Of a DNA stretch of 35,690 nt, positions 13,862 through 19,358 are shown piece after piece. The notes under the pieces were generated by a model, which was not told the origin of the DNA, made no database searches, and saw nothing but the letters and a program-made list of their open reading frames with translations. Each line of letters starts with the position of its first letter. Positions within the stretch are counted from its first letter, which is position 1. The DNA is from Chitinophagaceae bacterium. Its GTDB lineage: Bacteria > Bacteroidota > Bacteroidia > Chitinophagales > Chitinophagaceae. The stretch covers positions 1-35,690 of the forward strand of contig JAHEMM010000019.1 in assembly GCA_024643655.1 (NCBI GenBank). Reading direction: 5' to 3'. The position numbers and the translations under genes were made by a program.

Positions 13862-14374
13862 TTACTTAATAAATAAAGCTCTTAATTCAGCAGCATCATC
13901 AGGGTTCATCTTTCCGCCTAGTATTAACCTTAATTGTCTTCTACGTAATGCACCGTCAAACAGTTTTTTTTGATCTTCAGTTTCTACTTCCAATTGAGGA
14001 ACAGCTTTTGGTTTGCCATGAGGATCCAAAGCTACAAACGTATAATAAGCTTCGTTACTTTTATATTTGAATTGTTGCGTAAGATCTTCTCCCCAAACAC
14101 TCATATGTACTTCCATCGATGTGGTAAATGCCCGGGTCACTATTGCTTCAATATGTACAACATTTCCAAGTTTAATTGAATTTTCAAAAGAAATGTTATC
14201 AACAGATGCAGTTACGACAGGAGCATTACAATGCTTTTGAGCAGCCAATGCAGATGCAATATCCATCCAGTACATTAGTCTTCCACCCATTAAATTGCCA
14301 AATGTATTGGTGTCATTCGGTAACACCAACTCAGTCATGATGGTAATACTTTCAGAAGCTTTTTTACTGATCAT
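13862..14374 (-). CDS. Acyl-CoA thioesterase, hotdog fold
   Basis: A 170-residue single hotdog-domain protein of the YciA/BFIT-like group that hydrolyses acyl-CoA to free fatty acid and CoA in the cytoplasm. Signatures are ELVLPNDTNTFGNLMGGRLMYWMDIASALAA (the Asn/Gly-rich stretch and the catalytic-region Asp), VTASVDNISFENSIKLGNVV and the beta strand EAYYTFVALDPHGKPKAVP. A basic helix near the end (GALRRRQLRL) is common in these proteins. It starts at ATG 14374. It is 35 bases from the end of the photolyase-like gene upstream on the same strand, so the two may share a transcript. Confidence 0.88.
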   Translation of the reverse strand: MISKKASESITIMTELVLPNDTNTFGNLMGGRLMYWMDIASALAAQKHCNAPVVTASVDNISFENSIKLGNVVHIEAIVTRAFTTSMEVHMSVWGEDLTQQFKYKSNEAYYTFVALDPHGKPKAVPQLEVETEDQKKLFDGALRRRQLRLILGGKMNPDDAAELRALFIK

Positions 14375-14409: not shown

Positions 14410-15534
14410 TTATGCTCTTTTCAATTGAGGATTATTGTTTAATTTATTTAATTGACGTAAACATTTTTTCCAATAACTGAAGAATGAATTATGTTGTCCT
14501 TCGATATCAGGAAATAGCCAATCTCTTTTATCTTTATTTCCAGGCAAATGTTTGAATGCTGGGTGCTCTTTGGAATAAATTACTTGAATGTCTTTTAAAA
14601 ATGGGATTTCATTTATTTCTCCAGTAAAGATTTGTATGTCTTTAATATTTTTTGATAAGCCTATAATAAAATCAATTACTTTATTAGAAACAGGATATTG
14701 TTTAAAATGCGATGGCTCTAAAATTAGTACACGGTTCGCCTTCATGTCGCTTCTCCAAAGAGGATCAAGATTATAGCTGTTGTAAATGAGTAGAGGAAGA
14801 GTACTGTCAATTTTAATATTTCTTCTATTAGGTAAATTAGTTGTTAAATGTATTGTTGCTGTCTCTTTGAGTGAATGAGGAATTTCTGAAGTGGTTAACT
14901 CTTCATAACTTTTATCAAGAAATGTGTTTTGTTGAGAACTGTTTGCATACTTATTAATATTTTCCTGATTGCAATAATATTGTTTAGAAGAAAAACTACC
15001 GGCTATCCATTGCCAGCTTAATGTGTTATTTGCAAGATCTCCATCTAGTAAATGGTAATACATCCATTCAGATGGAAGCTTCCAATATGATCTGGCTATA
15101 TTACTGATTATACTGGCAATATACATTCTTAAGTGATTGTGAATATAACCCTTACCAATCATTTCATTAATTGCCTGGTCTATTACATTTATTCCAGTTT
15201 TAGCCGCCAAAATATTTTGCGAAATTTTTCTGTTTTGTACACCGGAGTAATTTATTTTGATATCATCAAATATATAATCTTCATAATGCTGCCATGTTCT
15301 TTGATAATATTCACGCCATGCTAATTGTTGAATAAATTTTTCTGACTCATATATGGAATAACCTCTTGACAAAATACTATCCAATACCTGTTTGGTTGAA
15401 ATAACTCCTCGAGAAATATAAGGAGAAAGCTGTGAAACGGCTCCGTTGGTGTAATTTCTTGTTTGAGCATATTTACCAGGTTGAATTTTCTCAACCATAT
15501 CTAATATCGCTGGGTATGTTAAAGGGAAATCCAT
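14410..15534 (-). CDS. Photolyase/cryptochrome-like flavoprotein with FAD domain first
   Basis: The N-terminal half is a FAD-binding photolyase domain: SQLSPYISRG (residues 34-43), LAWREYYQRTW (71-81), HNHLRM (132-137), DGDLANN (164-170) and WQWIAG (174-179). The usual preceding alpha/beta domain is absent, since this domain begins near residue 25. The last 130 residues instead resemble the N-terminal alpha/beta domain of the PhrB-like protein at 16038-17528: RVLILEPSHFKQYP matches RTVYLVEEYLYFKQYS, and IPFLKDIQVIYSKEH matches IPFLKKQGVTDIYYTHT. So the domain order looks permuted. The canonical N-P-x-x-Q region after the WQW is replaced by SSKQYYCNQENINKYA. The protein could be a DNA repair enzyme or a light sensor; the family is sure, the function is not. 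Confidence 0.8.
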   Translation of the reverse strand: MDFPLTYPAILDMVEKIQPGKYAQTRNYTNGAVSQLSPYISRGVISTKQVLDSILSRGYSIYESEKFIQQLAWREYYQRTWQHYEDYIFDDIKINYSGVQNRKISQNILAAKTGINVIDQAINEMIGKGYIHNHLRMYIASIISNIARSYWKLPSEWMYYHLLDGDLANNTLSWQWIAGSFSSKQYYCNQENINKYANSSQQNTFLDKSYEELTTSEIPHSLKETATIHLTTNLPNRRNIKIDSTLPLLIYNSYNLDPLWRSDMKANRVLILEPSHFKQYPVSNKVIDFIIGLSKNIKDIQIFTGEINEIPFLKDIQVIYSKEHPAFKHLPGNKDKRDWLFPDIEGQHNSFFSYWKKCLRQLNKLNNNPQLKRA

Positions 15535-15622
15535 TGCTTTTATTTTTATAACAATTTCCTTTATTAATAGTTTTACATAGTTGAAATGCTTTTTTCTTTT
15601 GTTTTAAGTTTTATCATTAAAT

Positions 15623-15904
15623 ATGTTTAATCGTTTAACAGAATCGGAAATTGATCGTGTCATTGAAATGGGATGGGAAGACAGAACTCCTTTTGAAGCT
15701 ATTCTATATCAATTTGGATTGCAGGAAAAAGAGGTTATTCAATTAATGCAAAAGGAATTGAAGAAAAGCAGTTTCATTTTGTGGAGAAAGCGGATGGCTG
15801 GTAGGACCACTAAACACAAAATGCTTAGAAATGAAAAAGTAAAAAGATTCAAATGCAGCCGGCAAAGAGGTATTTCTAGCAATAAAATAAGTAAACGATT
15901 ATGA
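15623..15904 (+). CDS. TIGR03643 family protein
   Basis: A 93-residue basic protein. The pattern LTESEIDRVIEMGWEDRTPF, then AILYQFGLQEKEVIQLMQKEL, then SFILWRKRMAGRTTKHK fits the small uncharacterised family TIGR03643, which I know as a frequent neighbour of cryptochromes and photolyases. The first 50 residues look like a helix-turn-helix; the last 35 are strongly basic (MLRNEKVKRFKCSRQRG), suggesting nucleic acid contact (inference). It is transcribed away from the photolyase-like gene across an 88-base gap, and its stop codon overlaps the end of the opposite-strand DUF2256 gene by 6 bases. No biochemical role is known to me. Confidence 0.8.
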   Translation: MFNRLTESEIDRVIEMGWEDRTPFEAILYQFGLQEKEVIQLMQKELKKSSFILWRKRMAGRTTKHKMLRNEKVKRFKCSRQRGISSNKISKRL

Positions 15905-16048
15905 TGATAATTGTCGTCTTAATCGACATTTTTCGCTACAATATTTTACTTCCCCCCAATTTTTTCTCCATTTTTTTCGCCAGTTGAATGATCGGTTACA
16001 GATTAGGCAAATTTTAGAAGGAAGGTCTATTTTTTTTCTAGTTTTCAA
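15899..16048 (-). CDS. DUF2256 small zinc-finger-like protein
   Basis: This 49-residue gene is found by reading the minus strand between the two flanking genes. Two cysteine pairs are visible, CLIC (14-17) and CSEKC (37-41), around a Trp/Lys/Arg-rich segment FNWRKKWRKNWGEVKYC, which is the DUF2256 pattern and likely binds one zinc. There is no ATG in frame; a stop lies two codons upstream. TTG at 16048 is the only plausible start and gives MKTRKKIDLPSKIC. The TTG lies inside the last codons of the PhrB-like gene (11-base overlap), so translation is probably coupled to it. The biochemical role is unknown; the linkage to photolyase genes suggests a partner function. Confidence 0.82.
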   Translation of the reverse strand: MKTRKKIDLPSKICLICNRSFNWRKKWRKNWGEVKYCSEKCRLRRQLSS

Positions 16049-17528
16049 GGTCTATTTTTTTGAGAAATTCATTTGCAATTTTCAAGTGAGTATCTCTTTT
16101 TTCTTCTGGCATTTTGTCAAAAGTTCTTATCAGCATACCTAATCTTGGATTCGTCATAAAGAAAGTACGATGTGTATGCAAAAAGCGCCAGAATAATCCA
16201 TCCCAGGTTTTTTGCCATTCTCCTTTTTCCCAATTGCCCATTTTTAGTAAATAATTACTGCCTGATATATAAGGTTTAGTGGTCATTAGCCCTCCATCAG
16301 CAAATTGTGACATACCATATACATTTGGTACCATCACCCAATCATAACTATCTATATACATTTTCATAAACCAACGATACACTTCATTTGGGTCAAATTC
16401 ACAAAGCAGCATAAAATTACCTAGCACCATCAATCGCTCAATATGATGCGAATATCCAGTTTGTAATAGTCTTTTAATTACCGTATCAACTGGTAAAATA
16501 CCAGTAGTTCCTTGCCAGAAAGAAGTTGGTATTTCTCTGGAAAAGCCCCAATAGTTTTTTGTACGTTGTTGACGACCTTCTCGTTCATATAGTATTCGTA
16601 TAAACTCTCTCCATCCTATAATCTGCCTGATAAAGCCTTCAAGTGAATTTAAAGGTATATTTTTTCTACCAGCGACTTTTAATACTTCATCCAGTACGAT
16701 TTGAGGATTTATTAATCCAATATTTAAAATAGGAGTTAAGATACTATGATATAAGGTATTTTCATTTTGTACCATGGCATCCTCATAAGTACCAAATTTT
16801 GATAACCGGTTTTCGAGAAAATCATTCAACCAAAGAACTGCATCACTTCTCGTTATTGGATAATTAAACGTATTTATCTCTCCGTAATTATTAGTAAAAT
16901 TTTTATTGACATAATTTATAGCTTCAGAAATAAATTTATTTGTTCCAAAGTCTGGTAATTCTGGGATGCTTTCTTTTTTCGGAAACTTCTGTCTATTTTC
17001 TTTATCAAAAGTCCATTTACCTCCAGTTGGTTTATTGTCTTTTTCAATAAGGATTTTCCGTTGTTTCCGTTGTGCTATATAAAAGTCTGTTTGAAAATAC
17101 TTTTTTTTCTGATCAAAGTATCTATTTAGATCATCAGTTGTGTTTAAAAAATTAGGGCTGGTTGAAGGATGTAAATTTAGTTGTAATGACTTGGCAGATT
17201 CAGTTATTCTTTTTTCAAGCCAATAGTCAACAGTATGAGTGTAATAAATGTCGGTAACGCCTTGCTTTTTTAAGAAAGGGATTAGTGATAATATATTTGC
17301 AATCGGCTCATTGGCATCAATATAGTTGACTTCTATATTATTGTCTGCAAGTTCAGCTGCATATGCTTTCATGCTTGACCGGTGAAGAACTAATTTTTGT
17401 TTATGAAAGGAATATTGTTTGAAGTATAAATATTCTTCTACCAGATAAACTGTTCTATTCTTACTCACTGCAGGATGTGCGTCAAATAATTGATGTGGGA
17501 AAATTATCGTAATTGCATGCATAGACAT
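16038..17528 (-). CDS. PhrB/FeS-BCP-type (6-4) photolyase-like protein lacking cluster cysteines
   Basis: A 496-residue cryptochrome/photolyase of the bacterial FeS-BCP (PhrB) group. The N-terminal alpha/beta domain shows FPHQLFDAHPAV, VYLVEEYLYFKQYSFHKQKLVLHR; the FAD domain shows the paired histidines of GYSHHIERLMVLGNF (361-362, the positions critical in (6-4) repair), then WVMVPNVYGMSQFADGG and TKPYISGSNYLLKM (417-430). Members of this group normally bind a 4Fe-4S cluster through four cysteines, three of them in the loop after this last motif. Here that loop reads GNWEKGEWQKTWDGLFWRF (431-449) with no cysteine, and the whole protein has just one (Cys376). It therefore cannot hold a cysteine-ligated cluster by itself. 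The DUF2256 gene is coupled downstream. Confidence 0.88.
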   Translation of the reverse strand: MSMHAITIIFPHQLFDAHPAVSKNRTVYLVEEYLYFKQYSFHKQKLVLHRSSMKAYAAELADNNIEVNYIDANEPIANILSLIPFLKKQGVTDIYYTHTVDYWLEKRITESAKSLQLNLHPSTSPNFLNTTDDLNRYFDQKKKYFQTDFYIAQRKQRKILIEKDNKPTGGKWTFDKENRQKFPKKESIPELPDFGTNKFISEAINYVNKNFTNNYGEINTFNYPITRSDAVLWLNDFLENRLSKFGTYEDAMVQNENTLYHSILTPILNIGLINPQIVLDEVLKVAGRKNIPLNSLEGFIRQIIGWREFIRILYEREGRQQRTKNYWGFSREIPTSFWQGTTGILPVDTVIKRLLQTGYSHHIERLMVLGNFMLLCEFDPNEVYRWFMKMYIDSYDWVMVPNVYGMSQFADGGLMTTKPYISGSNYLLKMGNWEKGEWQKTWDGLFWRFLHTHRTFFMTNPRLGMLIRTFDKMPEEKRDTHLKIANEFLKKIDLEN

Positions 17529-18965: not shown

Positions 18966-19358
18966 TTAAATGTGTAATATTTTTTTTAATTTTTCAAGGT
19001 AAGCTAACTCTTGCTTATTAATTTTTCTGGCACTTTCCGCAATATGTCTGGCGCTGTAAAAGATTCTGCGTTTGGTATTCACATCAAAATCATGTTCAAA
19101 TTCCTTGAAATAGGTTTCAAATGATTCAAATGCTTCTGAAGAAGACCTTAATTCATCTTCCATGGTTTCAAATTCAAATTGAATCAAAAAAGCCCGATCA
19201 GAACCAAAGCGGTCTTTACTTTCATCATAATGTTTCCATGCAAATTGAATTTCGTCATCTAAAGCTTTTTTTTCTTCATGCCGGATATGTTTATCAGCAG
19301 CAGCAATAGCATAAAAAAGATTGCCTAATTCTTTATATAATCTTCTTGGATCTTTCAT
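18966..19358 (-). CDS. TerB-like helical protein
   Basis: A 130-residue acidic, all-helical protein. The segment GNLFYAIAAADKHIRHEEKKAL resembles the TerB/DjlA N-terminal helical fold (small residues, then a conserved Asp and a Glu pair). The rest (RFGSDRAFLIQFEFETMEDEL, KKFEHDFD-like region and a final helix) is characteristic of small Bacteroidota relatives. It is cytoplasmic, with no signal peptide or membrane segment. No other tellurite-resistance gene is nearby, so the name describes the fold only. The 173-base gap to thyA holds nothing I can identify. Confidence 0.65.
   Translation of the reverse strand: MKDPRRLYKELGNLFYAIAAADKHIRHEEKKALDDEIQFAWKHYDESKDRFGSDRAFLIQFEFETMEDELRSSSEAFESFETYFKEFEHDFDVNTKRRIFYSARHIAESARKINKQELAYLEKLKKILHI

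Follow-up and report, generated by a model that had tools for sequence, protein, structure and literature searches.

What is the purpose of two different photolyase genes packed together with two small genes of no assigned function? The question is raised by positions 14410-17528 of contig JAHEMM010000019.1 (assembly GCA_024643655.1, Chitinophagaceae bacterium), all 35,690 nt of which were analysed and are called the window here. An initial annotation had described a group of four genes in this region. Their open reading frames (ORFs) are indeed open, and Pfam and NCBIfam models confirm the families: two photolyases, a DUF2256 protein and a TIGR03643 protein. We consider it likely that the locus is a recurring cassette for light-dependent DNA repair, in which two complementary photolyases, predicted to act on cyclobutane pyrimidine dimers (CPDs) and on (6-4) photoproducts, are joined by two accessory proteins. 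Alignments show that both flavoproteins retain most of the residues that form the flavin and lesion pockets in active photolyases, and the light-dependent repair proposed in the initial annotation fits these conserved active sites.

One of the two photolyases carries its flavin adenine dinucleotide (FAD) domain first. FAD_binding_7 (PF03441) is the only Pfam domain in the protein. The AlphaFold2 (AF2) model, calculated with 16 sequences, has a predicted local distance difference test score (pLDDT) of 91.4 and a predicted template modelling score (pTM) of 0.90, and consists of helices in residues 7-213 followed by an alpha/beta part. Both results place the catalytic FAD domain at the N-terminus with no alpha/beta domain ahead of it, as in the NewPHL and short photolyase-like (SPL) enzymes. 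Foldseek aligned about 200-240 columns of the model with photolyases, the best match having an E of 2.8e-7 over 213 columns. Sequence searches of the PDB returned canonical photolyases and cryptochromes alone, all matching in the FAD domain.

The active site was compared in an alignment of 95 FAD-first sequences (93 distinct). These come from 96 finds and one further fragment that belongs to the window; the fragment and an ORF of 318 residues were left out. The equivalents of W286, N349, W367, N386, W390 and W392 of the A. nidulans photolyase are invariant in all 95 proteins, and that of M353 is present in 92. W286, N349, M353 and W392 are what we take to be the CPD-pocket residues, and the Asn and Met presumably sit where eukaryotic (6-4) enzymes have two His. 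By alignment, the pocket of the FAD-first enzyme is shown to be of the CPD type. The chain residues W174 and W151 are found in 95/95 proteins and the third-site region has no Trp in 85/95, so that the protein has, by sequence, a Trp dyad. The NewPHL of D. shibae is described in a passage of PMC8948257 as having 'a mere Trp dyad' rather than a triad. No CxxC motif occurs in any of the 95 Bacteroidota proteins; all three Deinococcus relatives have cysteines positioned as in iron-sulfur (FeS) enzymes.

The inverted, FAD-first order is not new. Photolyases of inverted topology were reportedly described as NewPHL or SPL by Emmerich in 2020 and Xu in 2021. A new circular permutation, considered at one point, was therefore dropped, and the protein is named NewPHL/SPL-like because the inverted domain order is published and the Trp dyad is evident by sequence. 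The Bacteroidota proteins, of which 14 were sampled for a tree, form a separate group there (support 100/99). An alphaproteobacterial relative, annotated as 'FAD-binding domain-containing', is 29% identical over residues 3-292 (E 4e-26). The Bacteroidota, alphaproteobacterial and Deinococcus groups are not joined in the best tree, from which characterised members are absent, and a single clade of the three is not rejected by the approximately unbiased test (p-AU 0.37). One FAD-first protein (L070, 5756-6997, genome G150) has a long insert, rich in Gln, Thr and Asn, between its two domains.

The initial annotation called this protein permuted. The FAD domain does come first, and the C-terminal part is likely, though not certain, to be the usual alpha/beta domain. 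The C-terminal domain (residues 230-374), modelled with a pLDDT of 95.1, is probably the counterpart of the antenna alpha/beta domain that is usually N-terminal. Aligned alone by hhalign with canonical N-terminal domains it gave P 8e-4, and with full-length canonical proteins 2.4e-3, whereas 13 neighbouring families used as controls gave 0.11 or worse; the P-values, from 23 comparisons (9 + 14) in all, carry no correction. For comparison, the N-terminal domain of the other photolyase, a member of the DPRP family, gave 1.3e-3 with the same canonical set. Pooling the C-terminal domains of the window group with those of its relatives improved the value to 2.9e-5, which presupposes that the aligned domains are homologous. 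The window group itself gave P 0.02 with the Deinococcus and 0.37 with the alphaproteobacterial C-terminal domains, and these two groups gave 1e-5 and 0.23, respectively, with the canonical set. Aligned alone with other photolyases of such loci, the domain gave 0.017-0.042 for a third photolyase described below, 0.11-0.16 for DPRP enzymes without an FeS cluster site and 0.33 for those with one. Two proteins from outside Bacteroidota were left out of the domain comparison: that of Arthrobacter is a canonical photolyase, and that of Novosphingobium THN1 has a partly wrong frame.

Foldseek found no match for the C-terminal domain at E 0.001. The best photolyase listed was CRY2, at rank 36 with E 0.88, with a TM-score of 0.50 that is the highest of the 50 matches listed. 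The alpha/beta model PF00875 does not match the window protein. Of the three Deinococcus relatives, one has a match C-terminal to its FAD domain (E 7e-4) and another has one in the ORF that follows (E 2e-4), both under the curated cut-off; the third has none. In the plasmid of Deinococcus sp. QL22 (L152, 4884-6175) the annotation splits a FAD-first photolyase into two ORFs that overlap, one with the FAD domain and one with a weak PF00875 match.

The DPRP enzyme matches the solved prokaryotic (6-4) photolyases over most of its length (8IJY, 273.6 bits; 4DJA, 270.9 bits; phmmer), and both its DPRP domain and its homology to PhrB place it in that class. The initial annotation had spoken of a cluster-less PhrB, and this is correct: the enzyme lacks all four [4Fe-4S] cysteines that mark the FeS-BCP subtype, and its loop is shortened. 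The 65 members aligned from 198 genomes of the phylum split cleanly into 42 with all four cysteines and 23, including the window enzyme, with none; in these 23 the loop that bears three of the four is shortened. FeS status was read from this alignment for the 65 members and from the cysteine pattern at other loci, and changed only once on a quick gene tree of the 65. The equivalents of PhrB H366, Y424 and Y430 are kept in 65/65 members and that of H365 in 62/65. In the window enzyme His365/His366 and Tyr424/Tyr430 of PhrB, which we take to have active-site roles, correspond to H361, H362, Y420 and Y426 (PhrB numbering was counted from the phmmer alignment). The His-His and Tyr-Tyr pairs of prokaryotic (6-4) photolyases are thus shown, by alignment, to be in place. 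A passage of PMC9178010 assigns cluster-less (6-4) photolyases, including PromaPL of Prochlorococcus, to subgroup M, and because this subgroup is already published the window enzyme is a known variant.

The gene families were profiled in the same 198 Bacteroidota genomes and in 14 control genomes. Of the 198, 65 contain DPRP, 56 TIGR03643/DUF2805, 64 DUF2256 (two weak matches, in G082 and G011, are left out of the counts that follow) and 16 the FAD-first protein at 260 bits or more (a 79-residue partial match in G101 is left out). DUF2256 is present in 58 of the 65 genomes with DPRP, in 4 of the 56 with other photolyase matches only and in none of the 77 without photolyase matches; the corresponding numbers for TIGR03643 are 48, 8 and 0. 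The co-occurrence of these families with photolyases, which the initial annotation had pointed out, is thus borne out. DUF2256 groups with DPRP beyond chance (Fisher p 5e-37 for the 198 genomes and 3e-18 by genus, with both families in 33 genera, DPRP only in 6, DUF2256 only in 2 and neither in 61), these p-values being descriptive because the genomes are related. Three of the 14 control genomes contain DPRP, and DUF2256 is found in two of those three and in no other control.

A further suggestion of the initial annotation was that one of the small proteins supplies a metal site that the PhrB-like enzyme has lost. The four Cys of DUF2256, invariant in 11 aligned members, and the occurrence of both families beside cluster-less DPRP enzymes would suit such a role. 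However, loss of the FeS cysteines tracks neither family in the genome profile: DUF2256 occurs in 20/23 cluster-less and 38/42 cluster-bearing genomes (p 0.69) and TIGR03643 in 19/23 and 29/42 (p 0.38). This leaves the metal-supply idea unsupported, although a comparison of this kind can say little about causation, FeS status having changed once on the quick tree. Furthermore, three of the 23 cluster-less genomes have no DUF2256, and part of the cluster loop has been deleted along with the cysteines. We regard this explanation as very improbable. The FAD-first gene is found in 14/23 cluster-less and 2/42 cluster-bearing genomes (p 1e-6), an association that is confounded by the same single change. 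Correlated loss of the FeS site and gain of the FAD-first gene was rejected as a candidate finding because one FeS change and seven partner changes on the quick tree provide too few independent contrasts.

The genes also recur as neighbours. A scan of named genomes for FAD-first relatives found at least 579 stretches, of which the best 80 were kept. Two of them have the same sequence as sampled genomes. A cluster-less DPRP gene is found at 44 of the best 80, a cluster-bearing one at 2, DUF2256 at 42, TIGR03643 at 41 and a third photolyase at 25. Many of the contigs end early, and 56 of the 80 loci have at least 2.5 kb upstream and 4 kb downstream. At these the numbers are 33, 2, 34, 31 and 16, respectively, and 50 of the 56 have at least one of DPRP, DUF2256, TIGR03643 and the third photolyase. 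The usual order, on one strand, is TIGR03643, FAD-first gene, third photolyase (if present), DUF2256 and DPRP; in another set DPRP comes first. DPRP lies on the strand of the FAD-first gene at 44 of 46 loci and TIGR03643 at 40 of 41, and DPRP and DUF2256 overlap or are separated by less than 100 bp at 28 of the 32 loci with both. The third photolyase, absent from the window locus, is mostly about 490 residues long (e.g. L095, 8083-9558, and L097, 5381-6853), and the two members scanned reached no NCBIfam subfamily cut-off. On a megaplasmid of Persicobacter the FAD-first, third photolyase and cluster-less DPRP genes are consecutive. Three loci outside Bacteroidota, all labelled as metagenome-assembled genomes (MAGs), reflect either transfer or mis-binning (L092, Rhodobacteraceae; L114, Gammaproteobacteria; L121, Opitutaceae).

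Two clusters of flavin-reductase-like genes, with one member of each scanned, lie within 6 kb of 18 and 7 of 81 loci. Such genes (PF01613; e.g. L104, 9546-10190, and L081, 2582-3130) are found inside or beside the cassette, and short-chain dehydrogenase/reductase (SDR) genes also recur.

Of the 61 genomes for which the place of DUF2256 was fetched, 44 have a photolyase-type gene no more than 5 kb from it (rough chance 0.01). The types found at this distance are DASH/class-I-like (26), cluster-less DPRP (15), third photolyase (14), FAD-first (11) and cluster-bearing DPRP (10). On plasmids a photolyase adjoins DUF2256 at 3 of 7 loci (Acinetobacter, Tritonibacter and Rhizobium) and lies within about 3 kb of TIGR03643 at 2 of 4 (Acinetobacter and Vibrio pelagius). 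The Acinetobacter plasmid (L154, 4998-6928) has the tail-to-tail layout of the window for TIGR03643, DUF2256 and a photolyase, here a cluster-bearing one. A nudC NAD+ diphosphatase gene follows this set.

Both small proteins are clear members of their families. The DUF2256 protein scores 71.6 bits against a Pfam cut-off of 25 and has a zinc-ribbon-like CxxC...CSxxC pattern, in which C14, C17, C37 and C41 are the invariant cysteines, accompanied by conserved Trp, Lys and Arg. The family is placed in the TRASH clan in a passage of PMC4047054. TIGR03643, a small, basic and conserved protein, scores 114 bits against a curated cut-off of 66.55 and has no solved relative by sequence at E 1. A fusion of DUF2805 with an NADH diphosphatase is listed in a passage of PMC6856373. 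No paper linking DUF2256 or DUF2805 to photolyases was found in the open literature, subscription papers being outside the search.

Several observations weigh against a repair cassette. Its activity and its role under ultraviolet (UV) light are predicted from the genes, and binding of zinc or nucleic acid by DUF2256 is putative. Residue 70 of the window FAD-first protein (15325-15327) is Gln at the position of A. nidulans E283, which we take to be the catalytic Glu; Glu is found here in 91/95 proteins, and Gln in the window, L073, L112 and L146. Furthermore, RsCryB, a member of the DPRP family, acts in signalling and regulates gene expression according to a passage of PMC9178010. These two points would agree with one or both flavoproteins being blue-light sensors (cryptochromes), with the small, basic and conserved TIGR03643 as their output regulator and repair as a secondary function. 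This is unlikely, since the lesion-pocket residues are conserved across both families and the two small genes are also found next to photolyases of other types.

The places of the small genes count against the cassette as well. TIGR03643 is inverted in the window, unlike at the 40 of 41 loci mentioned above, and is absent from all 14 control genomes. DUF2256 lies away from any photolyase in 17 of the 61 fetched stretches, some of these being cut short by the end of the contig, and TIGR03643 in 8 of 25 fetched places. There is no annotated adjoining photolyase at 4 of the 7 plasmid DUF2256 loci (Hirschia, Spirosoma, Agrobacterium and Thioclava) and none near the other two of the four plasmid TIGR03643 loci. 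In Thioclava the plasmid DUF2256 gene adjoins an SOS-response-associated peptidase, and the zinc ribbon of ribosomal protein L24 shows weak similarity to the DUF2256 profile (E 0.08). Thus the two small genes may belong to the response to light or UV stress, with regulation and neighbourhood in common with photolyases but a target elsewhere, for example in translation or in the handling of DNA after UV. We take this possibility seriously, while leaning away from it: DUF2256 tracks the (6-4)-type gene and not photolyases in general (58/65 against 4/56), and the two genes are tightly packed at most of the loci with both.

Coordinates of the features of the locus within the window
Feature	Position	Strand	Evidence
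(6-4)-type photolyase, DPRP/PhrB relative, 496 aa	16038..17528	-	Pfam DPRP E 1.7e-59
DUF2256 protein, 49 aa, TTG start	15899..16048	-	Pfam 71.6 bits
TIGR03643/DUF2805 protein, 93 aa	15623..15904	+	TIGR03643 114 bits, DUF2805 E 5e-34
FAD-first inverted-topology NewPHL/SPL-like photolyase, 374 aa	14410..15534	-	FAD_binding_7 E 7e-22, residues 67-200
Probable C-terminal alpha/beta-like domain of FAD-first protein, residues 230-374	14413..14847	-	AF2, hhalign
Divergent intergenic stretch between TIGR03643 and FAD-first genes, 88 bp	15535..15622	.	ORF coordinates

The genes are not quite packed without free space, as had been stated initially. The DPRP and DUF2256 genes, on the same strand, overlap by 11 nt and the DUF2256 and TIGR03643 genes overlap tail-to-tail by 6 nt, but 88 bp are free between TIGR03643 and the FAD-first gene, which are divergent. 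A single transcript for all four genes is impossible because TIGR03643 is on the opposite strand. Scans for promoters and terminators in the region, including the gap, gave matches at chance level only, and none of the four proteins matched a PADLOC family. Among the best 80 loci the nearest named relatives are Chitinophagaceae MAGs, in which the FAD-first protein is 59-60% identical. A 4HBT thioesterase gene (13862-14374, minus strand) adjoins the FAD-first gene, and its cluster recurs at 10 of 81 loci at a median distance of 12 bp. Further away, a protein of 130 residues (18966-19358) matches the Pfam Colicin model with 20.1 bits, under the cut-off of 23.4, which is probably a chance helical match.

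In the proposed repair cassette blue or UV-A light would excite reduced FAD, from which an electron would pass to the flipped-out lesion. The FAD-first enzyme would split CPDs, by its class probably in single-stranded DNA, and the DPRP enzyme would repair (6-4) photoproducts. DUF2256, basic and zinc-ribbon-like, most likely aids the photolyases in gaining access to damaged nucleic acid or in binding it, and TIGR03643 is most likely a DNA-binding regulator or accessory, although these two roles are guesses. Activity, lesion choice, single-strand preference and contacts between the proteins of the cassette are what we infer. Because both photolyases lack the FeS cysteines that some of their relatives carry, the cassette would be independent of FeS assembly.

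A bolder proposal can be put forward tentatively. Across phyla, DUF2256 may serve prokaryotic (6-4) photolyases, as well as the photolyases whose genes accompany theirs, as a dedicated small zinc-ribbon partner, required in the search for damage or for access to single-stranded or structured DNA; TIGR03643 would be a DNA-binding accessory, and the cassette an FeS-independent unit for two lesions that is carried between Bacteroidota. Whether or not this holds, the locus ties two small families without an assigned function to light-dependent repair, with the prokaryotic (6-4) photolyase as specific partner. It also points to a natural system in which cluster-free enzymes would handle both types of lesion, and so bears on the purpose of the [4Fe-4S] cluster, whose role in these photolyases is called still elusive in a passage of PMC12082625.

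The four proteins can be compared with known systems. The DUF2256 and TIGR03643/DUF2805 proteins are above the curated cut-offs of their families. The DPRP enzyme is homologous over most of its length to the FeS-BCP enzymes PhrB, RsCryB and Cc(6-4)PL, as its match to 4DJA indicates, but has neither their cluster cysteines nor the full loop. It resembles PromaPL and subgroup M, a likeness drawn from description only, in its DPRP domain, in the absence of the four cysteines and in the retention of the active-site His and Tyr; it differs in occurring with DUF2256 and a FAD-first photolyase. The FAD-first protein is like NewPHL/SPL in being short, in having its FAD domain first with no N-terminal alpha/beta domain, and in its Trp dyad by sequence, a likeness that rests on descriptions and not on direct alignment with a characterised NewPHL. 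It differs from these enzymes in having no FeS cysteines, in forming a Bacteroidota group of its own and in sharing its cassette with a photolyase of the (6-4) type.

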